Shown: positions 17,544 through 62,956, numbered from the stretch's first letter. The stretch is DNA of 64,000 bases from Archaeoglobus sp. JdFR-27 (GCA_002011235.1 MTMO01000008.1:62001-126000); one strand, 5' to 3'. The notes: generated from the sequence alone by a model not told the origin. Numbers and translations are program-made.

Positions 17544-18452
17544 TTATCTTTTGCCAGTCTGCTTCTCGTAGAGAGCTTTCGCAAACAAAGCCGCACCTAT
17601 GGCTCCAGCTATCTGGGGATCGTATTCTGTCTCAAGAGCTTTCATGCCAAGCATGTCCTGCACTCTTACTACGACACCTGGATTTTTGGAGATCCCTCCT
17701 GTAATTGCAAAGTCCGCTTCAACCCCAACTCTCTCCAGCAATTCTACAACCCTTGTAGCTACAGATCTGAAGAATGCAGCCAGTATTCTGTTCTTGGGCC
17801 ATCCCTTTCTTATCAGGCCGAGAATTTCTGACTTTCCAAAGACTATACAAGTTGTGCTAACTGGCTCAGGTTCATCGTCTGGGTATACCTCTAGCGACAT
17901 AGAGCCCACTTCTGTTATCGGGATTGAAAGCAGGTCTGCGACAACTTCTATACCTCTACCAGTTCCAGCAGCGCATTTGTCGTTCATTAGGAAGTTTACA
18001 ACCTTCCCTCTGTGGTCTATCTTAATTGCCTTCAGGTCTTGACCTCCCATATCTAAGACTGTCCTAACACTTGGACCATAGATGTAGTTAGCTCCTCTTC
18101 CATGGCATGCAATCTCTGTAATAGTTTTGTGTGCAAAGGGTATGCTAACTCTGCCGTATCCAGTTCCGACTATGTAGTGTATGTCTTCCCTTTTCATGTC
18201 ACCAATTTTATCCAAAATTGATCCGAGTGCTTTTTCAGAGCTTGCTGCGCTGCTTGATCCAGTTCTAAGGTTGGAGTAAGCGTAAAGTTCTCCATCGAGC
18301 ATGATAACTGCCTGCGAACTGACAGAGCCAAGATCTATTCCGCAACTTATTACCTCTGCTTCTTTCCAGTTTTTACTCTCGTCTATCCAAACTGTTTCAG
18401 GCCATCTCCAATATTCACTTTCTTGAATTGCCTCCATCCAATTCACCTCCAA
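17544..18452 (-). CDS. bzdQ: Benzoyl-CoA reductase ATPase subunit, BzdQ/BcrA-like
   Basis: A 302-residue member of the BcrA/BcrD/HgdC ATPase family (ASKHA fold). It shows GIDLGSVSSQAV, GTGYGR, DMGGQD, NDKCAAGTGR and a late TGGISKN. Cys160 and Cys202 correspond to the two cysteines that hold the [4Fe-4S] cluster at the dimer interface. Together with BzdP it would hydrolyse ATP to drive electrons into the BzdN/BzdO subunits for ring reduction. An N-terminal extension of about 35 residues precedes the phosphate loop. The length and the N-O-P-Q order fit the Azoarcus Bzd type better than the longer Thauera BcrA. Confidence 0.9.
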   Translation of the reverse strand: MEVNWMEAIQESEYWRWPETVWIDESKNWKEAEVISCGIDLGSVSSQAVIMLDGELYAYSNLRTGSSSAASSEKALGSILDKIGDMKREDIHYIVGTGYGRVSIPFAHKTITEIACHGRGANYIYGPSVRTVLDMGGQDLKAIKIDHRGKVVNFLMNDKCAAGTGRGIEVVADLLSIPITEVGSMSLEVYPDDEPEPVSTTCIVFGKSEILGLIRKGWPKNRILAAFFRSVATRVVELLERVGVEADFAITGGISKNPGVVVRVQDMLGMKALETEYDPQIAGAIGAALFAKALYEKQTGKR

Positions 18453-18455
18453 AAA

Positions 18456-19226
18456 TTATAAACCGGAAAGCGCTGCTCCCAGTGCTGGAATAAGTTCGGG
18501 GGCGATTTTGTCAGGCACATAAACTTCTGTTCCAAGTTCTCGCTTGAGAGAATCAACGAAACCTACATCGTTTGCAAGCCCACCTATCACAACGACATCA
18601 TCCTCAATTCCAACTCTTCTGGCTATGGATGCAACTCTATCGGCTATTGCATCATGGATTGCTCTTGAAATCTCCGGTTTTGGTACGTTGTCATGCAAAA
18701 GGGAGACAACCTCAGATTCAGCGAAAATAACACACTGAGCGTTCATTGGAACTTCTCCCTTGGCATCGAGGGACATCCTTCCGAATTCTTCTAGGGGAAC
18801 CTCTAAATACCTCACCATCGCATCCACGAATGAGCCTGTGCCAGCTGCACATTTATCAGCTAAGGCAAAATCCTTGATGTTTCCATTCTCATCAACCTTC
18901 ACAGCCCTCGATTCTTCAGCACCAACCTCTATGACTGTTTTAACTTTTGGCCATACGAAATAGGCACCTTTTCCAGCGGCAACAACCTGTGTGAGTTCGC
19001 TGTCTGCGAATGGAACTGAAATCTTTCCGAACCCCGTTGCAACGAATTTATTAATATCATCTCTGGAAATACCTGCAGCTTTTAGTGCCTCATCTAAAGC
19101 CTCTTCGACAGTCTTTTGGTGGTCGATACCCGTTCTCACATTTGAGGTTCCTATGATCTCTTTATTTTCGTTTAGCAGAACAACCTTTGTATATTTTGAT
19201 CCCACATCAATTCCAGCCACAATCAT
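18456..19226 (-). CDS. bzdP: Benzoyl-CoA reductase ATPase subunit, BzdP/BcrD-like
   Basis: A 256-residue partner of the BzdQ-like subunit. The phosphate loop GIDVGSKYTKVV and the interface cluster ligands Cys126 (ADKCAAGTGS) and Cys165 (NAQCVIF) are present. The motif that reads GGQD in the BzdQ-like and HgdC-like copies reads GAEES here, so the two ATPase sites may not be equivalent. It is separated by only 3 bases from bzdQ-like and 21 bases from bzdO-like, so it is clearly part of the operon. Confidence 0.88.
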   Translation of the reverse strand: MIVAGIDVGSKYTKVVLLNENKEIIGTSNVRTGIDHQKTVEEALDEALKAAGISRDDINKFVATGFGKISVPFADSELTQVVAAGKGAYFVWPKVKTVIEVGAEESRAVKVDENGNIKDFALADKCAAGTGSFVDAMVRYLEVPLEEFGRMSLDAKGEVPMNAQCVIFAESEVVSLLHDNVPKPEISRAIHDAIADRVASIARRVGIEDDVVVIGGLANDVGFVDSLKRELGTEVYVPDKIAPELIPALGAALSGL

Positions 19227-19247
19227 CTCTCCACCTCCTACTTTTCA

Positions 19248-20588
19248 CTACTTTTCAGAGATCCTTTCAATACCCATACTCTGCATGAAGGAGTCTATTA
19301 CGTTAAAGGTTCTCGCCTCGTCAAAGTCTCTGGGGTCTGCCATGTTTCCTTCATATGTTGCAACTGGTATGTTATTTTTAACTAAGTAGTCTCTAACCTC
19401 AAGTGTTGACAAGTTCCATAACTCACATCCTCTGTTTATGTGCATGATAATGGCATCAGCATTCCAGTCCTTGATCATCTGGTATGTTTCAAGCTTTCTG
19501 ATCCAGTGGGAGTACTCATGCTGCCAAGAAGCCCTGTATCTGAGGTTGTATTCTGCAGTCCATCTAAGAGCCTCTTCTCTATTTGTTATCTCAACTCCAG
19601 CCTCCTCAGGAGTTGGAGCTGGCTCCCAAATCCATTTTTCTCCCTTTTCATCCATTCCCAGCCATCCTCCGGCAAGTCCAAATGTGTAAATCGCTCCCAA
19701 TGAAACGGCTCCATACTCCTTCTCCAGATATCTATAGACCTTCAAGAAAGCCCATGGTGGTGGATTGTCGGTGAGGAATCTGAATTGCTCGTAAGTTAAA
19801 GCCCCAATTCCTCTTTTCACCCTGCTTTCAACCTCATCGTAAAGCTTGTGGTAGAGCTTTGCCACTTCTGGGTCTGATCGGTTTATCAGGTTCAGTACAT
19901 AAAGACTGAACATCGATTTTTCCTCAAGCGGAGCTGGCTTCGCCTGATTCAGCTTGCAGATTCTCGCCCAAGTTGACATCGAATCGGCTTCTGCATAAAC
20001 GGCTTTGATTAGCAGCTCATCATCGTACTCTCTTCCTGTTATTTTCTCCATCCATGAAATCGCATCGTTTAGCTGCTTCACAACATAGTTTATTCTCTTG
20101 TCATCAAGCAGATAACCGGGTCCTACCGAGATATCTACAGCATACGTTGGAACTCCGCCTTCTAGTTCAGCCGCATAATGGTACCATTTTGCATGAGTAC
20201 AACATATGTGAATTGTGAAGTTGAAATCCGGTTTTGGAAACGGCTCGACTGTCGTCCCATCTGGAAGGAGGTATTTGTTTTGGGCAATTGAGCCCCAGTA
20301 GTTCCTCATGTATCCGCAGAGATCTCTTGCAACTCCTCTCCTCTCAATTGTTTCAAGGCATTGCCGCGAGAAATCATGGAAGAACGCGCATGTTGCACCA
20401 TAAGGTTCGCCCGTAAGTGGATAAACGTCTTCCCCCAATCCATGGGGTATCGCATCGAAGGCCCAAGCGGAACCGGCCCATCTGATGCCGCCTTTATCTT
20501 TCGCCTCCAAATAGTTCTTGTAGTATCTCTCCCTATACTTCTTAAAATCGTTCCAACATTCAAGTGGTCTTACTTTTACTTCCATCAT
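19248..20588 (-). CDS. bzdO: Benzoyl-CoA reductase subunit, BzdO/BcrB-like
   Basis: A 446-residue subunit of the 2-hydroxyacyl-CoA dehydratase/BCR family that takes part in binding and reduction of benzoyl-CoA to cyclohexa-1,5-diene-1-carbonyl-CoA. Candidate [4Fe-4S] ligands are Cys91 (DLCGYMRN), Cys129/Cys130 (HICCTHAKW) and a Cys in the later INRGCELW motif. The length equals that of BzdO-type subunits. GAGGTGAG precedes the ATG, and a second in-frame ATG follows immediately. It lies between the BzdN-like and BzdP-like genes. Confidence 0.9.
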   Translation of the reverse strand: MMEVKVRPLECWNDFKKYRERYYKNYLEAKDKGGIRWAGSAWAFDAIPHGLGEDVYPLTGEPYGATCAFFHDFSRQCLETIERRGVARDLCGYMRNYWGSIAQNKYLLPDGTTVEPFPKPDFNFTIHICCTHAKWYHYAAELEGGVPTYAVDISVGPGYLLDDKRINYVVKQLNDAISWMEKITGREYDDELLIKAVYAEADSMSTWARICKLNQAKPAPLEEKSMFSLYVLNLINRSDPEVAKLYHKLYDEVESRVKRGIGALTYEQFRFLTDNPPPWAFLKVYRYLEKEYGAVSLGAIYTFGLAGGWLGMDEKGEKWIWEPAPTPEEAGVEITNREEALRWTAEYNLRYRASWQHEYSHWIRKLETYQMIKDWNADAIIMHINRGCELWNLSTLEVRDYLVKNNIPVATYEGNMADPRDFDEARTFNVIDSFMQSMGIERISEK

Positions 20589-20594
20589 CTCACC

Positions 20595-21773
20595 TCAGAA
20601 GAATAAATCCTCTTCACCCAAAGCCTCGAGAAACGCCTCAACTCGAGTCCTGAACTGTCCAACTGGCTGAGTTATATCAAGTTCTAGCGTTAGGTGTTTC
20701 ACGTCATGTTTGTCAAACAGATCTCTTAAAGCTGGAATATCCAGCTCATGTGGATCGCAGAACTTCATCTGAGTGATAATAGCTCCCTGCACGTTATAAT
20801 CTTTAATCACTCTCTCAATATGCTGAAATCTCCTTCTGATGAGTTCTCCAGTAGCCCAATCCTTTGCGGGACATGGAATTCTATAGACGTACCTCTCTGC
20901 GAGGGCCATCAATCTGTCCTCATTCGGTCTAACCTCATCCCAGAAATATCTGGCTCCTGTGCAGCACTCCTCATAAACAAACGTTGCAGGGTAGTTTATT
21001 CCGTATTCAACCAGCTCAAGGAAACTTCTGTCATCATCTTCACTACCTATCAGGATCAGTCTTGTTCCAGCTTCTCTCTCCACTTCAGCATCTTTCAACT
21101 CCTCCAAAAGAGCCTCCAAAACCTCATTGTGGTCTTTCTTATCAACTATCTGTGAAGAAACTACCATTTCCATTGCATGCAGTCCGGTGATCGGTGGATT
21201 ATCGCTTTTTCTCAGCTCAAAAACCTCCTTCATAAGCTGACGGTTTTTGTTATAGACCTCAATCGCCCCATCAAGTTCTTTGTTGGTTATCGTCGTCCCA
21301 GTCCATTCCTCAACCGCAGACTTAAATTTCTCAAGCTCACTCCTGAGATAGGGTGCTGCATGGGGGTTGTTCACACCGTGAGGGAAAGGCATGTAGTAGC
21401 TCCATTGGATGTTTGGAACCCTATCTACAAAGCTGAAATAGGATTGTCTCATATGTAGGCACGACTGAGCTAACGTTACTCCATCCAGATAATCATACCT
21501 TCCCTGCAATCCTTGAGCTAAGGTGTCGTGGCAAAATGGACAGTACATGTCATGTAAATAAGGCCTTGTAATACTTTCAGGCTCGTGAGAACCGAGAATT
21601 CTTACTGGAAGCACTCCAGCAGCGTATAGAATTTCTTCGGGGCAGTAAGTGCAATAGTAGCCAACAACTTTCCCACCATTTTTTCTTTTCCATTCCTTAG
21701 CGTATTCATGTCGCTTTTCGAACCACTCTCTGAACTGTTTGAGCTGTGGGAGCTCCTCTACCTTTTTTCCCAT
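20595..21773 (-). CDS. bzdN: Benzoyl-CoA reductase subunit, BzdN/BcrC-like
   Basis: A 392-residue subunit, the first gene of the leftward BCR operon. The family motif YCTYCPEEILYAAGVLPVR is at about 40-58. Further cysteines are Cys78 and Cys81 (YCPFCHD) and Cys105 (AQSCLHMRQ), with KFCDPHE near the C-terminus. GGAGGTGAG stands 3 bases before the ATG. The next gene follows after 6 bases. The closest identifiable type is the ATP-dependent class I enzyme of Azoarcus (BzdN). It could also act on substituted benzoyl-CoAs, which sequence cannot decide. Confidence 0.9.
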   Translation of the reverse strand: MGKKVEELPQLKQFREWFEKRHEYAKEWKRKNGGKVVGYYCTYCPEEILYAAGVLPVRILGSHEPESITRPYLHDMYCPFCHDTLAQGLQGRYDYLDGVTLAQSCLHMRQSYFSFVDRVPNIQWSYYMPFPHGVNNPHAAPYLRSELEKFKSAVEEWTGTTITNKELDGAIEVYNKNRQLMKEVFELRKSDNPPITGLHAMEMVVSSQIVDKKDHNEVLEALLEELKDAEVEREAGTRLILIGSEDDDRSFLELVEYGINYPATFVYEECCTGARYFWDEVRPNEDRLMALAERYVYRIPCPAKDWATGELIRRRFQHIERVIKDYNVQGAIITQMKFCDPHELDIPALRDLFDKHDVKHLTLELDITQPVGQFRTRVEAFLEALGEEDLFF

Positions 21774-32057: not shown

Positions 32058-32999
32058 TTACTCAAGTTCTGCTCCACACTCCAGACAGTACTTTGAATCT
32101 TCAGGCAGATATTTGGCTCCGCATTTCGCACATCTCTTTCTGTATGGTCCGAAGGGGTATCTTGGATCTCCACCCTTTGCAATGAAATCTCTAATCTCTC
32201 TCATCTCTGTCTTTCTCTTCTCCTTAAATGACCACAGTCCTTCAGTCGGCTCCACAGAGCCGATGTTAAGGGAGAACCAAGCTTTACCATGCTCCCAGGT
32301 AAGTCTCCAGACGAGATCCCTCCACCAGTTGAGGTGGACTTTAAAGTACCACAGGCTTGAAGGTGACAGATCGAGCATTCTGTCGATGTATTCTTTCACC
32401 TTATCATCGAGTTTATCTTGTGGAACAACCTCATTTACCACTCCCCATTCCAAGGCGGTTTTCGCGTCTATCTCGCCACTGAGCATCACAATTTCTGCGG
32501 CTCTCTTCAGCCCCATATGTAGGGGTAACCACTGTGACAGACCACCGATGGAGGTCATTCCGACTCTTGGGCCAGGAGAGATAAATCTAGCGTTTTCTGA
32601 AGCGATCGCAAGATCGCATGCTGAAACGAATTCGAAGCCACCACCGGCAGTAACGCCATTGACCCTCGCAATCACAGGCTTACCGCAGTGCAGTATCATG
32701 TCAAAAACTCTCCCATAGATCTCCCCCCATTTCCAGAAGTCCCACGGTTTCTTGTTGTACTCTTCCGCATACTCATGTACATTTCCCCCTGTGCAAAATG
32801 CCTTATCGCCCACCCCACTAAGGACGATGAACTGCACATCATCATCGAACATCGATTTCTCGATTGCATCGACCATTTCTCTCAGCGTCGTCAGGGTATA
32901 AGAGTTGTATTCTTGGGGGCGGTTTATGGCAATCAGTGCTGTGTGCTCGTACCAATTTTTATCATATATGATCTCTTTATACTCCGATTCTCCAGACAT
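32058..32999 (-). CDS. oah: 6-oxocyclohex-1-ene-1-carbonyl-CoA hydrolase with C-terminal zinc ribbon
   Basis: A 313-residue crotonase-family ring-opening hydrolase (BamA/BzdY/Oah type). Diagnostic stretches are NRPQEYNSYT, GVGDKAFCTGGNVHEYAEEY, GKPVIARVNGVTAGGG and SIGGLSQWLPLHMG. It would cleave the ring of the 6-oxo compound to 3-hydroxypimelyl-CoA. Two oddities stand out. The usual BamA-type insert of roughly 50 residues after the ring-binding core is missing (bacterial enzymes are about 375-380 residues). The C-terminus carries CAKCGAKY...CLECGAEL, a zinc ribbon not typical of bacterial Oah. It lies between dch and an HgdC-like ATPase gene. Confidence 0.82.
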   Translation of the reverse strand: MSGESEYKEIIYDKNWYEHTALIAINRPQEYNSYTLTTLREMVDAIEKSMFDDDVQFIVLSGVGDKAFCTGGNVHEYAEEYNKKPWDFWKWGEIYGRVFDMILHCGKPVIARVNGVTAGGGFEFVSACDLAIASENARFISPGPRVGMTSIGGLSQWLPLHMGLKRAAEIVMLSGEIDAKTALEWGVVNEVVPQDKLDDKVKEYIDRMLDLSPSSLWYFKVHLNWWRDLVWRLTWEHGKAWFSLNIGSVEPTEGLWSFKEKRKTEMREIRDFIAKGGDPRYPFGPYRKRCAKCGAKYLPEDSKYCLECGAELE

Positions 33000-33100
33000 A
33001 AATTTTTAAAGAATTTATCATGGATTTAAATCTTGCGAAATTTTCTGAAAAACAGTGTCCAGACAAAGTTGGATAGAATTTAGGTAAAATTGGGTAAAAT

Positions 33101-33886
33101 TCATTTTTTAAACTTCTTAGAAGCGATTAAAGCAGCCCCAAGCGCTCCAACGATCTGAGGCTCATCGGGAACTTTTATTTTATGCTTTATTTCGTTCTCT
33201 AGTGCTTTGACAACTCCCTTATTCTTCGCAACCCCTCCAGTCATTATGACATCATCCTCTATACCCACCTGCCTAATCAGTCCGCTTACCCTCTTTGCGA
33301 TCGCCTCGTTCAGCCCTGCGACTATGTCTTCAGGCTTGTTTCCAGAGGCAATCAGCGAAATAACTTCTGATTCAGCAAATACTGTGCAAGTGCTGGTGAT
33401 AGAAACCTTGTTTTTCGACTTGAAAGCAGCTTCCACCATTTCATCCATCTCCATCCCAAGCACGCTCGCCATAACTTCGAGAAATCTGCCTGTTCCAGCA
33501 GCACATTTGTCGTTCATCGTGAATTTTACAACCTTTCCATTGTCATCGAGTCTCATCACCTTGGAATCTTGCCCTCCAACATCTATGACTGTGTGACAGT
33601 TCGGAAAAAGATGCTTTGCTCCGTTAGAATGGCACGTTATTTCAGTTATCTTTTCATCGGCAAGCGTAGTCACAGCTAGGTTTCTTCCATATCCTGTCAC
33701 GATGGAATAGGCAATATCGTTCTCACTCAGCCCCGTTTTCTCTAAACACTCTTCATATATCCTCTTTCCAACTTCAACTATGTTGGCTGTCGTCCTTTTG
33801 ATCAAGTATCCAATTATCTTCTTTTCCTCATCGATTATGCATATTTTTGTGGCAAGAGAGCCAATATCTATCCCTGCAAAGTACAT
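33101..33886 (-). CDS. HgdC/BcrA-D-family ATPase (2-hydroxyacyl-CoA dehydratase activator-like)
   Basis: A 261-residue third member of the BCR/dehydratase ATPase family in this window. Cys128 (NDKCAAGTGR) and Cys167 (TSTCTVF) fall where Acidaminococcus HgdC has its interface-cluster cysteines (127 and 166). GIDIGSLATKI, GTGYGR (as VTGYGR) and VGGQD are intact. Being single, it may form a homodimer as HgdC does and activate the lone pair of dehydratase-like subunits at 51173-53579. It lies with oah and dch, so a part in the benzoyl-CoA route is also possible. Confidence 0.85.
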   Translation of the reverse strand: MYFAGIDIGSLATKICIIDEEKKIIGYLIKRTTANIVEVGKRIYEECLEKTGLSENDIAYSIVTGYGRNLAVTTLADEKITEITCHSNGAKHLFPNCHTVIDVGGQDSKVMRLDDNGKVVKFTMNDKCAAGTGRFLEVMASVLGMEMDEMVEAAFKSKNKVSITSTCTVFAESEVISLIASGNKPEDIVAGLNEAIAKRVSGLIRQVGIEDDVIMTGGVAKNKGVVKALENEIKHKIKVPDEPQIVGALGAALIASKKFKK

Positions 33887-48342: not shown

Positions 48343-49410
48343 ATGATGAAAGCGTTTGTTATGAAAAAGGTAGGGGAAGTAGGGTTCATAGACAAGCCCA
48401 TTCCAGAGCCAGGACCATACGATGCCCTTATAAGGACAACAAAGGCTTTGATCTGTACCTCTAACATCCACGAAGTTCATGGAAGGGTAAAGGCGATGCT
48501 TGATAAGAAAAATGTCACCCTTGGTCATGAGGCTGTTGGAATTGTAGAGAAGGTTGGATCACATGTTAAGGTATTCAAGCCTGGGGATAGAGTTGCTTTA
48601 GGGGGTAAGACACCAAACTGGCTTGATCCAATTTCTCAGACAGGTCATTCATCTCATGCGGGAGGACCAATGGGAGGGCACGAATTTGAACTAAAGAGGG
48701 ACGGTGTATTTGCAGAGTACTTTTTGGTGACTCAAGCTGACGGAAATCTTGCTCATATACCTGATTCTGTTGCTGATGAAGCAGCGGTCTTTGCAGGAGA
48801 TATAGTCACAACTGGAATTGGAGGAGCTGAAAACGCTCATATACCGCCTGGAGGCATTGTAGCTGTTTTTGGGGCTGGGCCTATAGGTTTAATGTGTGTA
48901 AGAGGGTGCAGATTACTCGGTGCTGGGCTTGTTATAGCCGTTGAAACGATACCAAAGAGGAAAGAGCTCGCAAAATACTATGGTGCAGATGTGGTAATAG
49001 ATTTTAAAGAAGAAGATCCGGTTGAAAAGATAATCTCACTAAGTGAGGGTGGTTTGGGAATAGATTCCGCCATCGAGGCTGTTGGAACTCAGATAACCTT
49101 TGAGAGTTGTGTCAAGGTTACAAGACCAGGAGGTACGATCTCTAATATCGGATACCATGGAGGTAGAGAATACGTGAACATTCCAGTTGAGGCTTGGGGT
49201 GGCGGAATGGCCGAAAAAACGATTACCACAATAATGAGTCCTGGTGGAAGAGAGAGACTTACGAGGATGCTTAGGCTAATTGAGAATGGAAGGGTAGATC
49301 CCACAAAGCTCATCTCCCATAGATTCAAGTTCGATGACATTGAAAAAGGATTCAGACTTGTTGAAAGCAAGGATCCTGATGTGCTCAAAGTTCTGATTGA
49401 TTTCGAATGA
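48343..49410 (+). CDS. Zinc-dependent alcohol dehydrogenase (secondary-alcohol type)
   Basis: A 355-residue medium-chain dehydrogenase/reductase resembling Thermoanaerobacter NADP-dependent secondary-alcohol dehydrogenase along its whole length. The catalytic zinc ligands are likely Cys in CTSNIHE, His in GHEAVG and Asp in AGDIVTTG. The structural-zinc cysteine loop is absent. The nucleotide-binding motif is GAGPIGLMCV. It could oxidise a secondary alcohol such as the 6-hydroxycyclohexenecarbonyl-CoA intermediate, replacing the missing Had. A solvent-type alcohol dehydrogenase is the alternative. It stands alone behind its own palindrome and promoter. Confidence 0.85.
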   Translation: MMKAFVMKKVGEVGFIDKPIPEPGPYDALIRTTKALICTSNIHEVHGRVKAMLDKKNVTLGHEAVGIVEKVGSHVKVFKPGDRVALGGKTPNWLDPISQTGHSSHAGGPMGGHEFELKRDGVFAEYFLVTQADGNLAHIPDSVADEAAVFAGDIVTTGIGGAENAHIPPGGIVAVFGAGPIGLMCVRGCRLLGAGLVIAVETIPKRKELAKYYGADVVIDFKEEDPVEKIISLSEGGLGIDSAIEAVGTQITFESCVKVTRPGGTISNIGYHGGREYVNIPVEAWGGGMAEKTITTIMSPGGRERLTRMLRLIENGRVDPTKLISHRFKFDDIEKGFRLVESKDPDVLKVLIDFE

Positions 49411-49478: not shown

Positions 49479-49504
49479 AATAAATCATGCAGGAGAGGTA
49501 TCCC

Positions 49505-51169
49505 ATGGAAACGAAACCTTGGAAGAGGTGGTATCCTTATATAGGCTGGCCAGAGGATATTGAAGAGCCTAGAGAAACCCCTCCAGAGGTGCTCAGGAGG
49601 ATTGCACAGGAATATCCCGATAAAGATGCAATAGTCTTTTATGGAAACGTTTTGACGTATTCAGAGTTTTATGAGAACGTTTGCAGACTCGCAAATGCCT
49701 TTAAAGAGCTTGGTATGGGAAAAGGAGATAGAGTCTCCTTTTTCATGCCGAATTGTCCGCAGTTCAACATCGGCTACTTTGCCTGTCTTACGAATGGAAT
49801 GATCTCCGTCCATACAAACGTGATGTACACACCGAGGGAGCTGGAATATCAGCTCAACCATGCTGGTGCAAAGGCCATAGTTACTCTTGACGTGATGTAT
49901 GATAGGGTTGAAGCTATTAGAGACAAAACCGGGCTGGAACATGTTATAGTTACAAGTCTTAGAGATTTCCTTCCGAAATCTTCACAAAGATTTATTGAAT
50001 TCAGAAATGAAAAGGTTCTTAGGGAGAAAGAAGGAGTTCATCTCTTTACAGATCTTCTTAAAAGTTCTGCTAAACCTCCGGAAATTCAGGCTGGGTTAAA
50101 CGATGTTGCATCGCTAACCTATACCGGTGGCACGACCGGATTGCCTAAGGGGGCTGTCTACACCCACAGGAACATAATGATCGATGCAGAGATATTCTCC
50201 ATAATGCTTGATGTTAAGAAGGAGAAAGATGTTTTTTCTGGCTTAATGCCAATGTTTCACGGGAATGGAATCTGGAATTCGAACATGAACATATTTTACA
50301 ATGCATGTACGGTGGTCCTCTTTCCGTATTTCGATCCCGGAGATCTGCTTAAGGCCATAGAAACCTACCGCATAAGCCAGATCCATTGTGTTCCAACTCA
50401 TCTTGTTGCCCTCGTTAACCATCCGAGGGTCAAAAGCTTCGATTTGTCGTCGGTGAGAGTTATAAGCGTTGGATCAGCTCCCGTTCCAATTGAATTATTG
50501 CATAAGGTTAAGGAGTTGATGCCCGATTGCACTGTTATAGAGCAGTGGGGTTTGACTGAAGCTGCGATAATCGGAACGAGTAATCCCGTGCATGGGATCA
50601 TAAAAGTTGGAAGTGCAGGCTTACCAGTGCCATCGGTTGAAATCAAGATAACTGACAGCAACACCGGCGAGCATCTACCCCTAGGGGAGGAGAATGTTGG
50701 GGAGATAGTACTCAGAAGCAAGAAGATAATAAAAGAGTACTGGAATGATCCTGAAAGAACTAAAGAGAGCATAAGGGATGGTTGGCTTTACACAGGTGAT
50801 ATAGGGTACATGGATGAGGATGGCTATGTTTACATTGTAGACAGGAAAAAGGACATGATCATCGCCGGAGGCTACAACATCTATCCAGCTGAGGTTGAAC
50901 AAGTGCTTTATACCCATCCTAAAGTCAAGGAATGCGCAGTAATTGGAGTGCCGGATCCTTATAGGGGTGAAAACGTTAAGGCGTTCATTGTTCTAAAAGA
51001 AGGGGAAACGGCCAGCGAAGAAGAGATAATAGAGTTCACAAAACAGCATCTTGCAAAGTATAAGGTTCCAAGGATCATCGAGTTCAGGGAAGAGCTGCCG
51101 AAGTCTCCAGTGGGTAAGATTCTGAGAAGGGTTCTTAAAGAAGAGGAGCTGAAGAAGGCAAAAGGCTAA
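49505..51169 (+). CDS. Acyl-CoA synthetase (AMP-forming), ligase 3
   Basis: About 554 residues, ANL family: YTGGTTGLPKGAVYTHRN, WGLTEAA, GWLYTGDIGYMDEDG, DRKKDMIIAGGYNIYPAE and KSPVGKILRRVL. GGAGAGGT six bases upstream supports the ATG at 49505. It is followed after 3 bases by the dehydratase-like subunit genes, so its product acyl-CoA may be their substrate. It resembles long-chain/medium-chain ligases in general; the substrate is open. Confidence 0.87.
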   Translation: METKPWKRWYPYIGWPEDIEEPRETPPEVLRRIAQEYPDKDAIVFYGNVLTYSEFYENVCRLANAFKELGMGKGDRVSFFMPNCPQFNIGYFACLTNGMISVHTNVMYTPRELEYQLNHAGAKAIVTLDVMYDRVEAIRDKTGLEHVIVTSLRDFLPKSSQRFIEFRNEKVLREKEGVHLFTDLLKSSAKPPEIQAGLNDVASLTYTGGTTGLPKGAVYTHRNIMIDAEIFSIMLDVKKEKDVFSGLMPMFHGNGIWNSNMNIFYNACTVVLFPYFDPGDLLKAIETYRISQIHCVPTHLVALVNHPRVKSFDLSSVRVISVGSAPVPIELLHKVKELMPDCTVIEQWGLTEAAIIGTSNPVHGIIKVGSAGLPVPSVEIKITDSNTGEHLPLGEENVGEIVLRSKKIIKEYWNDPERTKESIRDGWLYTGDIGYMDEDGYVYIVDRKKDMIIAGGYNIYPAEVEQVLYTHPKVKECAVIGVPDPYRGENVKAFIVLKEGETASEEEIIEFTKQHLAKYKVPRIIEFREELPKSPVGKILRRVLKEEELKKAKG

Positions 51170-51172
51170 AGA

Positions 51173-52321
51173 ATGCTGGCAAAAAAGGTAGATAGGATGG
51201 AAAAGATTGAGAAAGTTGAGAAGATCGATGCTCTATACAATTTTTTTCTTACCCGAAGCTTGCTTAGAAAATACAAAGAGAATGGAAAGAAAATCATAGC
51301 TTCGCTCTGCAATAACGTTCCTGAGGAGATAATTCATTCTATGGGAGCTGTTCCTGTTAGATTGCTTGGACTGGCAAAGTCCACAGAGCTTGCAAGTGCG
51401 AAGATCCCCACATGGCTTTGCCTCTATTCGAAGAGGCTTATGGAAGATGGGCTCAGAAGAGAATTCGATTTCCTCGATGGTATAGTTGGGATGACATCCG
51501 ACGACACGAAAACCCATCTTTTTTCTGCTTACAGCTTTTATCTCAAGCCAGGGTTCTCCTATCTGATCCAGATTCCGTATGTGAGGGATAAGAGTTCCAT
51601 TGAATTCTTTGAAAAGGAGCTGAAGAGGTTTGTAGAAAAATTTGAATCCTTCTTCAATACCGAATTCAGCGAAGAAAAGCTTGGGGAGTCTATCGAAATC
51701 TATAACAGATTCAGGGATCTACTAAACGATCTTTCGAGGCTGAGATGGGAGGATGAGCCGAAAGTTTCAGGTGAGGAGTGGCTTAAGATTTTACTCGCAA
51801 GCACGAGCATGCTTAAGGAAGAGTTAATCGAGCATCTCGAAGACATACTGGAAAAAGTGAATGATTCAGAGGGTTACAAAGATTACAAGCTCAGAATACA
51901 CCTTTCAGGTACGGACTTCTACGATGTGGAGATCGTGAAGATGATTGAGGATCTCGGTGGAATAGTTGTTTCGGATGATCTTTGCACATCTTCTGGATAT
52001 TATATAGGTAATGTAGGCGGAAGAACTCTGAGAGATCTGGCAAGGAGGTATCTCACTCAATCAGCTTGCGTTCTTACAGCCAGACTCGAACATCTGTCTA
52101 TCGAGGACAGATTGAATTTCATCATGGAAAGGATAGGAGAAAGCAGAGCTAATGCCATCGTGCTTTTAAAGGATAGGGGTTGCGAGATATGTGGCCATCA
52201 ATGCCCATTCATCCTCCAGGAGTTTACCGATATCCCAACACTTGTTCTCGATCTGGATACCCCATATCCAACTGAGCAACTGAAGACGAGAGTTGAGGCT
52301 TTTGTGGAGTCGTACGGGTGA
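51173..52321 (+). CDS. 2-hydroxyacyl-CoA dehydratase/BCR-like subunit with altered cysteines
   Basis: A 382-residue relative of BzdN/BcrC. The NNVPEEIIHSMGAVPVRLLG stretch aligns with the BzdN-like copy in the window with a constant offset of 5 residues. On that alignment Cys41 and Cys78 are kept (Cys46, Cys83), but Cys44, Cys81 and Cys105 are replaced by Val49, Ser86 and Asp110. The C-terminal part has CEICGHQCP, absent from the BzdN-like copy. It may be an alternative dehydratase, an aryl-CoA reductase or an electron-transfer partner. Met9 (51197) is an alternative start. It is linked to ligase 3 and to the next subunit. Confidence 0.75.
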   Translation: MLAKKVDRMEKIEKVEKIDALYNFFLTRSLLRKYKENGKKIIASLCNNVPEEIIHSMGAVPVRLLGLAKSTELASAKIPTWLCLYSKRLMEDGLRREFDFLDGIVGMTSDDTKTHLFSAYSFYLKPGFSYLIQIPYVRDKSSIEFFEKELKRFVEKFESFFNTEFSEEKLGESIEIYNRFRDLLNDLSRLRWEDEPKVSGEEWLKILLASTSMLKEELIEHLEDILEKVNDSEGYKDYKLRIHLSGTDFYDVEIVKMIEDLGGIVVSDDLCTSSGYYIGNVGGRTLRDLARRYLTQSACVLTARLEHLSIEDRLNFIMERIGESRANAIVLLKDRGCEICGHQCPFILQEFTDIPTLVLDLDTPYPTEQLKTRVEAFVESYG

Positions 52322-52340
52322 TTGGTAGAAAGGTGATATG

Positions 52341-53579
52341 ATGGAACTTCAAGAATGGAATCCTTTGGGTTATAAAAATCTCTATCGTGATCTCTTCAAA
52401 AAGCATCTCGCCAGACAAGATAGTCTTTTAAAGCAAGGCAGGCCTGTAGGTTGGTTTTTCTCCTTCCATCCATCCGAAATCATCTACATCTTTGACGTCG
52501 TTCCTGCTTATCCAGAGCAGTATTCTGCCTATTGTGCAGCTCGTGGCTCATCAGTCGACCTTATCGATGCTAGCATTAGTAAAGGCTATGGTCACTTTCT
52601 TTGTGATTACTTCAAAACCACGGTTGGAATGATAGAGGAGCCAGAAAAAGCAACCAAACCTCTCATGCCGAAACCGGATTTCATTGTAGATACTAGAGCA
52701 TTATGTGTTGCCCATCATGAAATGACGGAGGTTTTTGCTAGAAAGTACGGGATCCCGAAATACACGATAAATTACCCCTTCTGGACTTCCGATGCCCTTG
52801 GCTACGTTGATGAACTGACAAAGATCCCAGAAATGGTTGAAGAGCTTTACATAGAGTACTCCATTTCCAAACTAAAGGGACTGCTGGAATTTATGGAAAA
52901 GGTGACGAAAATACCGTTGAGCGATGAAAAGTTCAAAAGCGTATTTGAAACCTCTGAAAAAACATCCAAACTCTTGATAGAGGTAGCAAAACTTATGATG
53001 TCCAAACCCACTCCCGGAAGTCAGAGGGAGATAGCAGACCTCGTTTTCCTGGCTTTCTTCGTTCTTGGAAGCAATTATGCCTTGGAATTTGCAGAAAAAG
53101 GCTATGAAATGATAAAGGGAAGGGTGAAAAGAAAGGAAGGAGTGGTTCCTGAGGAAAAGTTCAGACTCTTAACCTTTGGTATCATGCCTTGGCATTCCCT
53201 CTCGCTTTACGAATACTGTGAGATGTTAGGAGCAACTTTTCCAGTGAATCTTTACGTAAATGCTTCTCTACATCTGTGCGATTCCAAAAAGCCATTTGAA
53301 AGCATGGTCAGAAGATCCATGCACTTCACAAATTCAACCTATGACCTGATGGATGGTGTTATTGAAAATGCAAGAAAAGCGGATTTGGATGGAGCTTTAC
53401 TCCTTGAAAACACCGGTTGCAGAATCACCTCTATGATAATTAGACCTCTGGCTGATACTCTTCAGGAGGAATTGGGTCTTCCAAGCCTCATCCTTGAAGC
53501 ACCGCAATGTGATCCAAGGATAATGCCTCTGGAAAGGGCCAAAACTCAGGTTGAAGCTTTTATCGAATCTTTAAAATAA
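52341..53579 (+). CDS. 2-hydroxyacyl-CoA dehydratase/BCR-like subunit, BzdO/BcrB-like
   Basis: A 412-residue partner of the preceding gene. The motifs FLCDYFK (Cys88), ALCVAHHE (Cys122) and NTGCRIT (Cys360) align with the cysteine motifs LCGYMRN, CCTHAKW and RGCELW of the BzdO-like protein, so its cluster site looks intact. GGTGAT is 3 bases before the ATG at 52341, and another ATG lies one codon earlier. No second ATPase gene follows; the HgdC-like gene at 33101 is the only spare activator in the window. Substrate unknown. Confidence 0.78.
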   Translation: MELQEWNPLGYKNLYRDLFKKHLARQDSLLKQGRPVGWFFSFHPSEIIYIFDVVPAYPEQYSAYCAARGSSVDLIDASISKGYGHFLCDYFKTTVGMIEEPEKATKPLMPKPDFIVDTRALCVAHHEMTEVFARKYGIPKYTINYPFWTSDALGYVDELTKIPEMVEELYIEYSISKLKGLLEFMEKVTKIPLSDEKFKSVFETSEKTSKLLIEVAKLMMSKPTPGSQREIADLVFLAFFVLGSNYALEFAEKGYEMIKGRVKRKEGVVPEEKFRLLTFGIMPWHSLSLYEYCEMLGATFPVNLYVNASLHLCDSKKPFESMVRRSMHFTNSTYDLMDGVIENARKADLDGALLLENTGCRITSMIIRPLADTLQEELGLPSLILEAPQCDPRIMPLERAKTQVEAFIESLK

Positions 53580-58716: not shown

Positions 58717-61065
58717 ATGGAAAGGGTTGAAAGATTAATCTCAAACGTCAGAAGGCCCGCGAGACTCAGCATTGAAAGAGCAAAACTGTATACTGAGTCG
58801 ATGAAACAGACAGAAGGAGAACCTATGATAATCAGACAGGCCAAGGCTTTAAAACACATACTCGAAAACATTCCGATTCAGATTCTCGATGGTGAGCTGA
58901 TCGTGGGAACGATGCTTCCGAATCCGCCGGGGGCAATTCTCTTCCCCGAAGGGGTTGGCTTAAGACTAATAAACGATCTCGATATCCTTCCTTCAAGAGA
59001 GACTAACAGGCTGAATGTTAGCGAGGGGGATGCAGAAGTTTTTCTTAAAGATATAGCTCCTTACTGGCAGAACAGAACTATAGAAGCATTTGCAGCTCCC
59101 CTTATGCAAGGAATAATGGAGATCTTGTATTCTGGCTCTCTTTTCGTCCTCACGGAGATGGCTGGGATATCACACGTGGCCATCAATTATCCATACATCA
59201 TGAAAAAAGGCTTCAGATGGTTTGTGGAGGAAAGTAGAAGGAGAATTGAAGAAATCGAAAGCAAGGGTGTATGGGATGCAGAAAAATTTGCATTTTATAA
59301 AGCATCTGAAATAGTATCTCAGGCTATCACTGAATATGGAGTTAGATACGCAAAACTGGCAATGAAAATGGCTGAAGGAGAAGAGGATGAGCAGAGAAGA
59401 GAAGAACTGATGAAGATAGCTGAAATCTGCAGAAAGGTTCCTGGAAATCCGCCAGAAAACTTCTGGGAGGCGGTTCAATTCCTATGGCTGGTTCAGTCTG
59501 CTTTACATCAGGAGAACTACGAGCAGGCGATTTCAATGGGAAGGATAGATCAGTATCTCTTTCCTTTTTACATTAAAGGTATCAAGGGAGGCAGAATTGA
59601 CAGAAAGCTCGCCTTCGAAATCCTCGCGAATCTCTGGGTAAAAACGAATGAAATCGTGCCACCATTCGATTCTCTACTGGAGCAGTACTTTAGCGGACAA
59701 ACGACCAATCAAGCCCTCACGATAGGTGGAACAGTCTATGCCAACGATGCAACGAATGAACTCACCTTTCTGATGCTTGAAATTACGGAGAAACTGAGAC
59801 TGAGACAGCCAAATGTTCATGTGCGAATTAGCAGCAAAACGCCTGAAGAATTTCTGAACAGACTTTCTGAGGCTATTGCAAGTGGATGCAACACCATTGC
59901 CGTTTTTAACGATGAAATTGCGGTTAAAGCTCTTAAATTTGCCGGAGTGAGCGATGAGGATGCATGGAATTACACGACTGTTGGATGTGTTGAGATAGCC
60001 CCATTTGGCAACAGCTTCACCTCCAGCGATGCGGCACTCATCAACATTGCAAAGGCCTTGGAATACGCGATGAACGAAGGCAGAGATATGATGTTTGGTT
60101 ATGAGTTTGGAGTGAAGACACAAAAGGCCAAATCTCTTGAAGAACTCATCGAAAATTTCAGGAAGCAGCTCTCACACATAGTCAAGCTTGTTGTTACGGG
60201 GTGTAACATCTTGGAGTATGCCAATTCAAAGGTAAAACCAACTCCTCTACTATCGCTCTGCATTGAGGACTGCTTTGAGAAAGGAATGGATGTGACCGAA
60301 GGGGGAGCTAGATACAATTTTACTGGAATCCAGGCGGTTGGAATTGCTGATGTCGCTGATTCCTTTGCAGCAATTGAAAATGCCGTTAAAGCTGGATACT
60401 CGATCGATGATGTCATCGAGGCATGTAAGAGTGATTTCAGCAATTCGGAACTCCATGAACTCCATGAACTCCATAAACTCCATAAGCTTCTTGAAAACAG
60501 CCCCAAATACGGAAACGATGTTGATTCAGCAGACAGATACGCGAGGATGGTTCTTGAGATGTACTGTGATGAGGTCAACAAATACCGCAACTACAGGAAT
60601 GGAAGGTTCACAGCTGGCTGCTATCCGATGACAACAAACGTGGGCTTTGGATTCTTCACATCAGCTCTTCCGTCAGGGAGGAAGAGTGGCAAACCCCTCA
60701 ATCCCGGGGTAAGTCCGAGTACAGGGGCTGAAAGGGAGGGCGTTACCGCAGCAATAAAATCTGCATGCAAGCTGAACTATGAAAAGGTATCCAATGGCGC
60801 ATCTTTTACTCTCCACCTTAGCGGAGACGTTCTTGGTGCAAAGGGAAGAGACGTGATAAAAGCAATGTTGAAAAGCTTTGTTGAGCTTGGAGGTATGCAT
60901 GTCCAGTTTAACATTCTCGATGCCGAAGTGCTAAAAAAGGCTCAGGAACAGCCGGAAAACTATAGGTGGTTGCTTGTAAGGGTTGCTGGTTGGAGTTCTT
61001 ACTTTGTGGAGCTATCGAGCGCGGTTCAAGATGAGATAATAGCCAGATTATCGTGTAAGGTTTAG
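58717..61065 (+). CDS. Glycyl radical enzyme (PFL-like, GCVE type)
   Basis: 782 residues. The catalytic thiyl cysteine is Cys424 in TTVGCVEIAP, followed by Glu426. The radical glycine is Gly758 in VRVAGWSSYFVEL, near the C-terminus as required. The Cys-Val-Glu triplet is found in dehydratases, C-N/C-O lyases and arylacetate decarboxylases; pyruvate formate-lyase has Cys-Cys. The enzyme is oxygen-sensitive and needs the activase encoded next. An insert of four ELH/KLH triplets lies at 578-589. Candidate reactions include decarboxylation of an arylacetate or elimination from a diol-type substrate. Sequence alone does not decide. Confidence 0.88.
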   Translation: MERVERLISNVRRPARLSIERAKLYTESMKQTEGEPMIIRQAKALKHILENIPIQILDGELIVGTMLPNPPGAILFPEGVGLRLINDLDILPSRETNRLNVSEGDAEVFLKDIAPYWQNRTIEAFAAPLMQGIMEILYSGSLFVLTEMAGISHVAINYPYIMKKGFRWFVEESRRRIEEIESKGVWDAEKFAFYKASEIVSQAITEYGVRYAKLAMKMAEGEEDEQRREELMKIAEICRKVPGNPPENFWEAVQFLWLVQSALHQENYEQAISMGRIDQYLFPFYIKGIKGGRIDRKLAFEILANLWVKTNEIVPPFDSLLEQYFSGQTTNQALTIGGTVYANDATNELTFLMLEITEKLRLRQPNVHVRISSKTPEEFLNRLSEAIASGCNTIAVFNDEIAVKALKFAGVSDEDAWNYTTVGCVEIAPFGNSFTSSDAALINIAKALEYAMNEGRDMMFGYEFGVKTQKAKSLEELIENFRKQLSHIVKLVVTGCNILEYANSKVKPTPLLSLCIEDCFEKGMDVTEGGARYNFTGIQAVGIADVADSFAAIENAVKAGYSIDDVIEACKSDFSNSELHELHELHKLHKLLENSPKYGNDVDSADRYARMVLEMYCDEVNKYRNYRNGRFTAGCYPMTTNVGFGFFTSALPSGRKSGKPLNPGVSPSTGAEREGVTAAIKSACKLNYEKVSNGASFTLHLSGDVLGAKGRDVIKAMLKSFVELGGMHVQFNILDAEVLKKAQEQPENYRWLLVRVAGWSSYFVELSSAVQDEIIARLSCKV
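60448..60483 (+). repeat. Tandem 9-base repeat inside the glycyl radical enzyme gene
   Basis: Three exact GAACTCCAT units and one AAACTCCAT encode Glu/Lys-Leu-His triplets, followed by Lys-Leu-Leu. It is an in-frame microsatellite in a region that looks like a surface loop or helix. Confidence 0.85.
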
Positions 61066-61066
61066 A

Positions 61067-61086
61067 TTGTCTAGAGTCTAGAACAA
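61067..61086 (+). promoter_or_regulatory. Hairpin between glycyl radical enzyme and activase genes
   Basis: TTGTCTAGA-G-TCTAGAACAA forms a stem with one bulged A, starting one base after the enzyme stop codon. It may reduce expression of the downstream activase or protect the 3' end of the enzyme message. The function is inferred. Confidence 0.4.
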
Positions 61087-61116
61087 TGGAAAATTGAGAA
61101 TAGAGTTAGGGTGATC

Positions 61117-62034
61117 ATGCTGGGAAGGATCTTCAGGATACAAAGGTTCTCGATTCATGATGGATACGGCATAAGAACGACGGTTTTCTTGAAAGGTTGC
61201 CCTCTCCGCTGCATATGGTGCCACAATCCTGAATCACAGAACTTTGAAAGGGATATTGCCTACAAGGAGGAGAAGTGCCTTTTTTGTCTTAACTGCGTAG
61301 CTGTATGTGAGAGAAAGGCAATCAGAGTAAATTATGAGGCGAAAAAGATAGAGATAAATAGAAACATCTGCGATTCATGCGGAAGATGTTCGGGGGTGTG
61401 TAATGGAAATGCGATTGAAATCTTCGGATTTGATGTTGAAGCAGTGGAAGTGATCGATATCGTTGAAAGGGACAGGATTTTCTACAAACATTCCGGAGGA
61501 GGCGTTACTTTCTCTGGAGGCGAACCTTATTCACAACCAGAATTTCTTCTCTGTTTACTCTCTCTTTGCAAAGAGAGAGGAATAAACACAGCAGTTGACA
61601 CTTCAGGCTATGCAAGCTGGAAAACGATAGAGAAATCGATTGATTTCGTTGATCTTTTTCTCTACGATATCAAAGATTACCTCAGTGAGAGGCACAAAGT
61701 CATTACAGGTGTGAGAAACGAACTCATATTAACTAATCTCAAAAAGTTGGTCGATTCAGCAGTAGACGTGGTGGTGAGGGTTCCTTTCATTCCTGGGTGC
61801 AACTTCAAAAGTAAAGACGATTTTATCGGTTTCATCAAAATGCTTTCACAGGTAGGAGTTGAAAAGGTTGATCTGCTGCCTTACCATTCGCTTGCGAGAG
61901 ACAAGTATAGATGGCTGGGGAGAGAGTTTCATGATTTCAGCTCTAGTTCCGGTTCCAACTTAAACACTCTCGACGAATTCGCTGAAGTTCTTAGAAATGT
62001 GGGGTTCAAAGTTACGGAGAGGGGATATTTTTAG
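61117..62034 (+). CDS. Glycyl radical enzyme activase (radical SAM)
   Basis: About 305 residues. The radical-SAM motif CPLRCIWCHNPE (CX3CX2C) is near residue 28. Two further [4Fe-4S] sets, CLFCLNCVAVC and CDSCGRCSGVC, lie at about 65-100, the insertion typical of activases for glycerol dehydratase, benzylsuccinate synthase and arylacetate decarboxylases, and absent from PFL-activase. SGGEPYSQPEF contacts SAM. It generates the glycyl radical on the preceding enzyme. A GTG at 61111 is another possible start; the ATG at 61117 follows GGGTGATC. Confidence 0.92.
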   Translation: MLGRIFRIQRFSIHDGYGIRTTVFLKGCPLRCIWCHNPESQNFERDIAYKEEKCLFCLNCVAVCERKAIRVNYEAKKIEINRNICDSCGRCSGVCNGNAIEIFGFDVEAVEVIDIVERDRIFYKHSGGGVTFSGGEPYSQPEFLLCLLSLCKERGINTAVDTSGYASWKTIEKSIDFVDLFLYDIKDYLSERHKVITGVRNELILTNLKKLVDSAVDVVVRVPFIPGCNFKSKDDFIGFIKMLSQVGVEKVDLLPYHSLARDKYRWLGREFHDFSSSSGSNLNTLDEFAEVLRNVGFKVTERGYF

Positions 62035-62203: not shown

Positions 62204-62956
62204 ATGAAGTTTAAGGACAAAGTGGTTCTTGTTACTGGAGCTGGAAGGGGAATAGGGAGAGCAATTGCTCTTGCTTTTGGAAAAGAAGGTGCAAAGGTTG
62301 TTGTGAACGATTTAAACCTAGACTCTGCGAATGAGGTTGTAAAGGAGATCGAATCGAATGGTGGAGCAGCAATGGCAATTAAGGCGGATATAACAAAGCT
62401 GGAAGAAGTCCAGAAGATGGTCGATGAGGTAAAGCAAAAATTTGGTAGCGTGGATATACTCGTGAACAACGCTGGCTACTGGACGATAAAGCTCTTCAAA
62501 GACACAACTCCAGAGGACTGGCAGAAGGACATTGGAGTGTGCTATATTGGGACGCTGAATTGCTGCAAAGCAGTAATCGACGACATGATCGAGAAGAGGT
62601 ATGGACGCATCATAAACATAGTTTCCGATGCTGGCAGGATTGGAGAGCCCTTCCTTTCAGTCTATTCAGGAGCAAAGGCAGCTGTTATCGCTTTTGGGAA
62701 GGCTCTCGCTAAAGAGGTAGCCAGGTATGATGTTACGGTGAATAACATCGCAGCAGGAGTTACGAAGACTCCAGGAGTTGAGAGCTTCTTGAAGGGTGTC
62801 GGTGGAGAGGAAAAGCTTATAAAAGCTTACCCGAGAGGCAGACTTGGAGAGCCAGAGGACATAGCGAACGGTGTGCTGTTCTTTGCTGCTGATGAATCGG
62901 ATTACATTACGGGTCAAACGATTAGCATAAGCGGCGGTTATACAACTGTGGGCTAG
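62204..62956 (+). CDS. Short-chain dehydrogenase/reductase (FabG-like)
   Basis: A 250-residue classical SDR: GAGRGIGRAIALAFG cofactor motif, NNAGYW, catalytic Ser in IVSDAGRIG, and Tyr and Lys in VYSGAK. The C-terminus YITGQTISISGGYTT is family-typical. Asp in VVNDLN after beta-2 favours NAD(H). It would interconvert a 3-hydroxyacyl or alicyclic alcohol and its ketone. It is a second candidate for the missing 6-hydroxycyclohexenecarbonyl-CoA dehydrogenase. GGTGAT is three bases before the ATG. Confidence 0.88.
   Translation: MKFKDKVVLVTGAGRGIGRAIALAFGKEGAKVVVNDLNLDSANEVVKEIESNGGAAMAIKADITKLEEVQKMVDEVKQKFGSVDILVNNAGYWTIKLFKDTTPEDWQKDIGVCYIGTLNCCKAVIDDMIEKRYGRIINIVSDAGRIGEPFLSVYSGAKAAVIAFGKALAKEVARYDVTVNNIAAGVTKTPGVESFLKGVGGEEKLIKAYPRGRLGEPEDIANGVLFFAADESDYITGQTISISGGYTTVG

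Follow-up and report, generated by a model that had tools for sequence, protein, structure and literature searches.

Two adjacent archaeal genes, here called X1 and X2, encode the beta and alpha subunits of a predicted BCR/HAD heterodimer that is separate from the canonical bzdNOPQ of the same genome. X1X2 probably represents its own kind of ATP-driven enzyme for aromatic acid breakdown, because one cysteine expected to bind the cluster of X1 is always replaced by aspartate and a new cysteine has been gained nearby. More specifically, it may be a second, differently tuned ATP-driven aryl-CoA or dienoyl-CoA reductase beside BzdNOPQ, with a rebuilt proximal cluster site, a reading to which we assign a probability of roughly 0.47. 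The window, the whole stretch of DNA analysed, covers 64 kb out of a 2.36 Mb archaeal genome (Table 1).

Table 1. Features of the window discussed in the text, with the X1 codons aligned to the cluster ligands of BzdN
Feature	Position	Strand	Length	Remark
X1, beta subunit (BzdN/HadC-like, PF06050)	51173..52321	+	382 aa	
X2, alpha (catalytic) subunit (HadB/BzdO-like, PF06050)	52338..53579	+	413 aa	
AMP-forming acyl-CoA ligase	49487..51169	+	560 aa	directly upstream of X1
Zn alcohol dehydrogenase	48343..49410	+		upstream of ligase, co-directional; Archaeoglobus-type genomes only
BadF/BcrA-type activase ATPase	33101..33886	-	261 aa	
Crotonase ECH2	32058..32999	-	313 aa	MenB/BadI/Oah-like core and C-terminal zinc-ribbon-like CxxC..CxxC
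Canonical bzdQ-P-O-N	17544..21773	-		comparison copy within the same window
X1 Cys46 codon	51308..51310	+		BzdN C36, kept (alignment to BzdN ligand list)
X1 Cys83 codon	51419..51421	+		BzdN C73 (proximal sub-cluster), kept
X1 Asp110 codon	51500..51502	+		BzdN C100 (proximal sub-cluster ligand), replaced
X1 Cys271 codon	51983..51985	+		BzdN C263, kept
X1 Cys299 codon	52067..52069	+		BzdN C293, kept
X1 C337-E-I-C340-G-H-Q-C344	52181..52204	+		C337 is the BzdN C327 ligand, not new

The X1-X2 Pair and Its Folds

The earlier note had placed a benzoyl-CoA-reductase/dehydratase-like pair, one subunit having 382 residues, between 51173 and 53579, 3 bases after an acyl-CoA ligase; both open reading frames (382 and 413 amino acids) are present as described, and the gap is exact (ligase end 51169, X1 start 51173). 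The two proteins exceed the gathering score of PF06050 (HGD-D domain, 28.4 bits), X1 with 238.6 bits (E-value 1.9e-70) and X2 with 178 bits (4.9e-52). Among known structures, the AF2 model of X1 (mean pLDDT 84) lies closest to BzdN (8s02_B, TM 0.86), and that of X2 (mean pLDDT 85) closest to HadB (3o3m, TM 0.85), followed by MbdO and BzdO. These fold matches of predicted models to BzdNO and HadBC agree with the PF06050 membership. In sequence, X2 is also slightly nearer HadB (123 bits) than BzdO (103 bits). X1 and X2 are always consecutive genes, and the pairs fit a heterodimer as the predicted assembly.

The same genome encodes a third PF06050 pair outside the window (G000:C13:82095-84291; L045 8075-10295), with no activase or ligase recognised beside it; the six canonical cysteines are all present in its beta subunit, and its alpha subunit is HadB-like, with Val at the His position discussed below. 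The canonical BzdN of the window (20595-21773) scores 425 bits, narrowly below the TIGR03190 cut-off of 453.8, and archaeal BzdN could in this way escape automatic annotation.

The Predicted Double-Cubane Cluster Site of X1

In BzdN, C36, C73, C100, C263, C293, and C327 are the ligands of an [8Fe-9S] double-cubane cluster, whose distal sub-cluster is contacted by His330 (PMC11971306). Since the cluster of BzdO occupies the place of the BzdN proximal sub-cluster (PMC11971306) and its cysteines align with BzdN C73, C100, and C327, these three would form the proximal half. At the six ligand positions X1 carries C46, C83, Asp110, C271, C299, and C337, so that five of six are kept, and a profile built from nine X1 orthologues aligns with BzdN in the register of the pairwise alignment.

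An alignment of X1 with the BzdN copy of the window at a constant offset, in which three of five early cysteines become Val, Ser, and Asp, had already been described. It proved exact: BzdN cysteines 41, 44, 78, 81, and 105 correspond to X1 C46, V49, C83, S86, and D110 at an offset of +5. As an account of an altered cluster site, this early-cysteine loss stands for Asp110, which lies at a cluster ligand, and falls for Val49 and Ser86, which lie at non-ligand positions in 8S02. The latter two were rejected as lost ligands, given that BzdN (8S02) has Thr and the non-ligand Cys76 there and that DCCP carries Val and Ile. The terminal CEICGHQCP is present as well, with cysteines 337, 340, and 344. 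Of its two new cysteines, C340, which takes the position of BzdN H330, is invariant among 17 X1 orthologues, and C344 is confined to those of the Archaeoglobaceae.

The distal half of the site is intact in X1 (C46, C271, and C299). This distinguishes it from HadC, in which two distal cysteines are missing (Pro and Ala at the positions of X1 C46 and C271), and from MbdN, which has lost its distal cysteines. The Archaeoglobaceae orthologues of X1 have lost two out of three arginines close to the distal sub-cluster. X1 is predicted to bind a modified double-cubane cluster, to which Asp110 and Cys340 may bind, and the aspartate near the proximal cluster together with the arginine loss near the distal one, in the Archaeoglobaceae form, would lower its potential.

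Alternatively, the proximal sub-cluster could have been lost, leaving C46, C271, C299, and C340 as the ligands of a single distal [4Fe-4S] cluster that relays electrons. This reading concerns the cofactor alone and fits either a reductase or a dehydratase. It draws on the placement of C340 at the position of BzdN His330, a residue in contact with the distal sub-cluster, and on the gain of C340 by every orthologue that lacks the proximal Cys100. We consider it the less likely reading, as none of the 17 X1 sequences varies at the proximal ligands C83 and C337 or at the residues surrounding them, and two Desulfobacterota proteins combine C340 with C100, so that the extra cysteine can coexist with a full complement of ligands.

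Conservation of the Rebuilt Site

Asp110 and Cys340 occur in 17/17 X1 orthologues, which come from the Archaeoglobaceae and a second family of the same phylum and descend to 39-40% identity. The TSDDT motif also occurs in a partial eighteenth sequence (L077). By contrast, every one of the 43 further family members in the alignment, comprising BzdN, DCCP, HadC, MbdN, anammox, Desulfobacterota, and other sequences, has Cys at position 110. The pattern is not due to chance, because it is invariant in 17/17 against Cys in 43/43. Cys340 appears in only two of the 43, both of which retain Cys110.

X1 has ten invariant residues that seldom occur elsewhere in the family. Of these, six (W81, Y85, T108, D110, G336, and C340) lie no more than three residues from the three proximal ligand positions, a clustering with a hypergeometric probability of 2e-6, or 3e-4 when D110 and C340 are left out. 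Judged from the sequences, the invariance of Asp110 and Cys340 and the X1-specific residues near the proximal ligands indicate that the proximal site was remodelled as a whole and has been maintained since.

Decay of X1 into a paralogue devoid of electron-transfer function is very improbable. Its identity of 49-56% in Ferroglobus, Geoglobus, and distant Archaeoglobus-type genomes is low against 70-76% for X2 and 73-87% for the ligase, but the open reading frames are intact in every translated orthologue, 51 positions are invariant, and the operon is fixed, with the five kept ligands found in two families. Across the Archaeoglobaceae, X1 changes faster than X2 and the ligase, and its cluster-site residues are nevertheless invariant.

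Several further matches were set aside. Those from anammox bacteria and Desulfobacterota were rejected as orthologues, since they lie outside the X1 clade and retain the Cys of position 110; none of the 11 matches read from part of one other phylum has the Asp110 form. In-frame TGA codons in some Desulfobacterota matches, considered as possible selenocysteine, stand in the printed contexts outside the conserved protein (before the start or at the stop), and the G304 match is a wrong-frame fragment and was excluded. The two Desulfobacterota beta subunits with Cys340 (L142 and L146; RYCDTCELEG) present seven candidate ligands, possibly an intermediate state. Additionally, a Candidatus Brocadiaceae locus (L007 7218-9119) encodes an activase ATPase fused to a PF06050 beta subunit in a protein of 633 aa, followed by an alpha subunit, and a plasmid of Azoarcus KH32C carries a beta gene of similar length (L131 5026-7083).

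The Catalytic Site of X2

The catalytic [4Fe-4S]-OH2 cluster of BzdO is bound by C95, C128, and C380, with Glu65 and His131 beside it (PMC11971306). X2 has all of the equivalents, C89, C123, C361, Glu60, and His126, and these five active-site residues are invariant in 13 orthologues; the retention of three cysteine motifs in the partner, noted earlier, is accordingly borne out for C89, C123, and C361. At the position of BzdO His131, the alignment places Val in HadB and Phe in MbdO, differing from the alanine given for HadB in the literature (PMC11971306). X2 also has its own conserved residues round the active-site cluster (Q61, S63, and Y65; F87, D90, and F92; E357, T359, and I363), which suggests action on another substrate or another chemistry.

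Phylogeny and Relation to Known Enzymes

In trees that include BzdNO, HadBC, MbdNO, and DCCP sequences, X1 and X2 each form one clade with branch support of 99-100, outside all four groups. The claim of a second pair distinct from BzdNO with altered cysteines therefore holds up, X1 lying inside none of the HadC, MbdN, DCCP, or BzdN clades in the best tree. For its deeper placement, neither grouping with BzdN (AU p 0.36) nor grouping with HadC (AU p 0.30) is rejected.

Both proteins score below every curated equivalog cut-off. The bzd-type profiles TIGR03190 and TIGR03191 give 99.8 bits against a cut-off of 453.8 and 86.4 against 448.6, and the HadBC profiles NF052455 and NF052456 give 113.2 against 750 and 103.9 against 700. 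The best NCBIfam score of X1 is to the DCCP profile NF040772, at 143.7 bits against 350. In terms of defining residues, X1 has five of the six double-cubane cysteines of a bzd-type N subunit, and X2 has the three cysteines and the Glu65/His131 pair of a bzd-type O subunit. The X operons contain one activase gene in place of the heterodimeric PQ activase of the bzd type. The lone [4Fe-5S] beta site of the HadBC type does not describe X1, which has C46, C271, and C299. The dedicated BadF/BcrA-type activase of the BCR/HAD superfamily is found in the gene neighbourhood.

The pair shares features with four known systems and departs from each. It resembles BzdNOPQ (8S02) as a predicted PF06050 heterodimer with five of six double-cubane cysteines, the catalytic cysteines, the Glu/His pair, and a benzoate neighbourhood, but differs in Asp for Cys100, Cys for His330, a single activase instead of BzdPQ, and a separate clade. 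With HadBC/HadI (3O3M, 4EHT) it shares an X2 nearest HadB in sequence and fold and an activase nearest HadI, whereas HadB lacks the histidine and HadC two distal cysteines that X1X2 have. DCCP with DCCP-R (6ENO, 7YYL) has cysteines of the double-cubane type and a single activase gene, yet it is homodimeric and keeps Cys at the Asp110 position, whereas X1 is predicted to have a distinct catalytic partner. MbdONPQ (9G87, 9GAI), a 3-methylbenzoyl-CoA reductase, belongs to the same family and fold and is a heterodimer for an arene-CoA, but MbdN lacks the distal cysteines, MbdO lacks the histidine, and the activase is heterodimeric.

Gene Neighbourhood and Distribution

In Ferroglobus placidus (G015), a Geoglobus-type genome (G006), and several relatives, the gene order is ligase-X1-X2-activase-ECH2, and this block adjoins a branched-chain-type ABC transporter. 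Ferroglobus, Geoglobus, and a second archaeal family (f9) have the activase gene immediately after X2. In Archaeoglobus-type genomes, the pair stands apart from the activase and ECH2, which here lie 17 kb off, at 32058-33886. The activase of the X operon is a single gene, nearest to the HadI and MbdQ activators, and two cysteines for the bridging [4Fe-4S] cluster are retained in it.

Ferp_1044 has a measured benzoate-CoA ligase activity, and Ferp_1033/1034 is a 2-oxoacid:ferredoxin oxidoreductase (PMC6500515). By gene order, with genes counted from Ferp_1033/1034 rather than read by locus tag, Ferp_1044 is the Ferroglobus orthologue of the ligase upstream of X1.

ECH2 has equal NCBIfam scores for the ring-opening hydrolases BadI and Oah, both far under the cut-off. 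It is 83-88% conserved across operon-bearing genomes, and its zinc-ribbon-like CxxC...CxxC tail (CAKCGAKYLPEDSKYCLECG) is unusual within the family.

These matches bear on a reading in which X1X2 performs the second reduction, from cyclohexadienoyl-CoA to cyclohexenoyl-CoA, in a Rhodopseudomonas-type branch together with a BadH-like SDR (62204-62956) and a BadI-like ECH2. The best NCBIfam matches are indeed BadH for the SDR and BadI for ECH2, both far under the cut-off, and the SDR lies near the X module in Geoglobus-type and G017 genomes. Nevertheless, this branch is improbable, as ECH2 scores just as high for Oah, and dienoyl-CoA reduction should not require an ATP-driven low potential. Biochemical work on F. 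placidus, moreover, reportedly favoured the Thauera-type route.

Among 57 Archaeoglobales genomes, 11 have both X2 and bzdN, two X2 only, three bzdN only, and 41 neither, a co-occurrence with a Fisher probability of 1e-7 that is uncorrected for shared ancestry. The two X-bearing genomes in which bzdN was not found are fragmented MAGs, and a closed genome of the genus Geoglobus (G018) has neither gene, as reported for G. ahangari.

In the second family (f9), a sister lineage, X1X2 was present in 5/5 genomes searched, and these genomes encode MCR. Where the contig is readable, the genes are arranged as thiolase-DUF35-SDR-HCD-ECH-X1-X2-activase-B12 mutase-MeaB; X1X2-activase thus has a B12 acyl-CoA mutase as neighbour, and no ligase or ECH2 stands beside it. 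Because the f9 operon has this composition, the substrate of X1X2 need not be benzoyl-CoA, and its chemistry need not be tied to benzoate alone. In four f9 loci (L052, L087, L088, and L089), the B12 acyl-CoA mutase is split (motif RGCYPNMYRGRVFTMRQLSGAGSPE).

Elsewhere in the window, positions 58717-62034 encode a PFL2-like glycyl radical enzyme of 782 aa and its activase, with scores under all equivalog cut-offs; a close relative also follows the ABC transporter in L002.

Proposed Function and Mechanism

In the proposed mechanism, ATP hydrolysis by the homodimer-type activase (33101-33886) would push low-potential electrons into X1. The X1 cluster would have a distal half held by C46, C271, and C299 and a proximal half held by C83 and C337, with Asp110 and Cys340 adjacent. 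Electrons would then pass from X1 to the catalytic [4Fe-4S]-OH2 cluster of X2 (C89, C123, and C361), where Glu60 and His126 could give hydrogen atoms or protons to the CoA thioester. The substrate, most likely an aromatic or cyclohexadienoyl-CoA, may be made by the upstream ligase, and the end product may go to the ring-opening ECH2. Cluster binding in X1, the way in which Asp110 and Cys340 take part in it, the direction of electron flow, the reductase activity, and the substrate are all predictions.

A reductase of the benzoyl-CoA pathway is favoured because of the Ferp_1044-like ligase, the ring-hydrolase-like ECH2, the co-occurrence with bzdNOPQ, and the Glu/His pair, and an electron-storing reductase because the distal cysteines and the same pair are kept. 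Several points count against this reading. X2 is nearer HadB than BzdO in both sequence and fold; the activase is a single HadI/MbdQ-like gene, an arrangement known from dehydratases and DCCP, and not a BzdPQ pair; a complete BzdNOPQ is already encoded in the host genome; three bzdN genomes lack X, and bzdN was not found in two X genomes. Furthermore, MbdNO reduces arenes without His131 or the distal cysteines.

Because X2 is HadB-like and the activase single, X1X2 could instead be a 2-hydroxyacyl-CoA dehydratase, acting for example on aryl-lactyl-CoA with one recycled electron and with X1 as an odd HadC-type relay; the earlier note had named aryl- or alkyl-2-hydroxyacyl-CoA as a possible substrate. 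The CoA ester could come from the AMP-forming ligase, the window contains IOR genes for arylpyruvates, and the trees tolerate a grouping of X1 with HadC. Opposed to this are the three distal cysteines of X1 and the BzdO histidine of X2, set against a HadC without two of these cysteines and a HadB without the histidine, as well as the orthology of the ligase to a benzoate-CoA ligase. A dehydratase is further disfavoured by the genes adjoining X1X2, in which neither a 2-hydroxyacid dehydrogenase nor a CoA-transferase was recognised. On this evidence a dehydratase is a serious minority candidate.

The ATP-driven reductase can also be drawn more boldly, as a tentative and rather doubtful proposal: X1 would hold an [8Fe-9S]-type cluster of very low potential with new proximal ligands (Asp and/or a relocated Cys), and X1X2 would be a third type of ATP-driven acyl-CoA reductase, with a substrate other than benzoyl-CoA, common to aromatic-degrading Archaeoglobaceae and the MCR-bearing family.

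Significance

To date, DCCP and BzdN are the only proteins with reported double-cubane clusters, and BzdNO variants with alanine in place of cysteine were unstable (PMC11971306). The invariant exchange of Cys for Asp in X1, together with a possibly compensating Cys, offers a natural variant with which each half of the cluster may be probed. Present annotation would label X1X2 a generic dehydratase or reductase. At the level of sequence, the best reading is a new subfamily inside a known superfamily, a well-supported structural novelty, and archaeal benzoate degraders are predicted to hold a second ATP-driven enzyme in the operon of their benzoate-CoA ligase.
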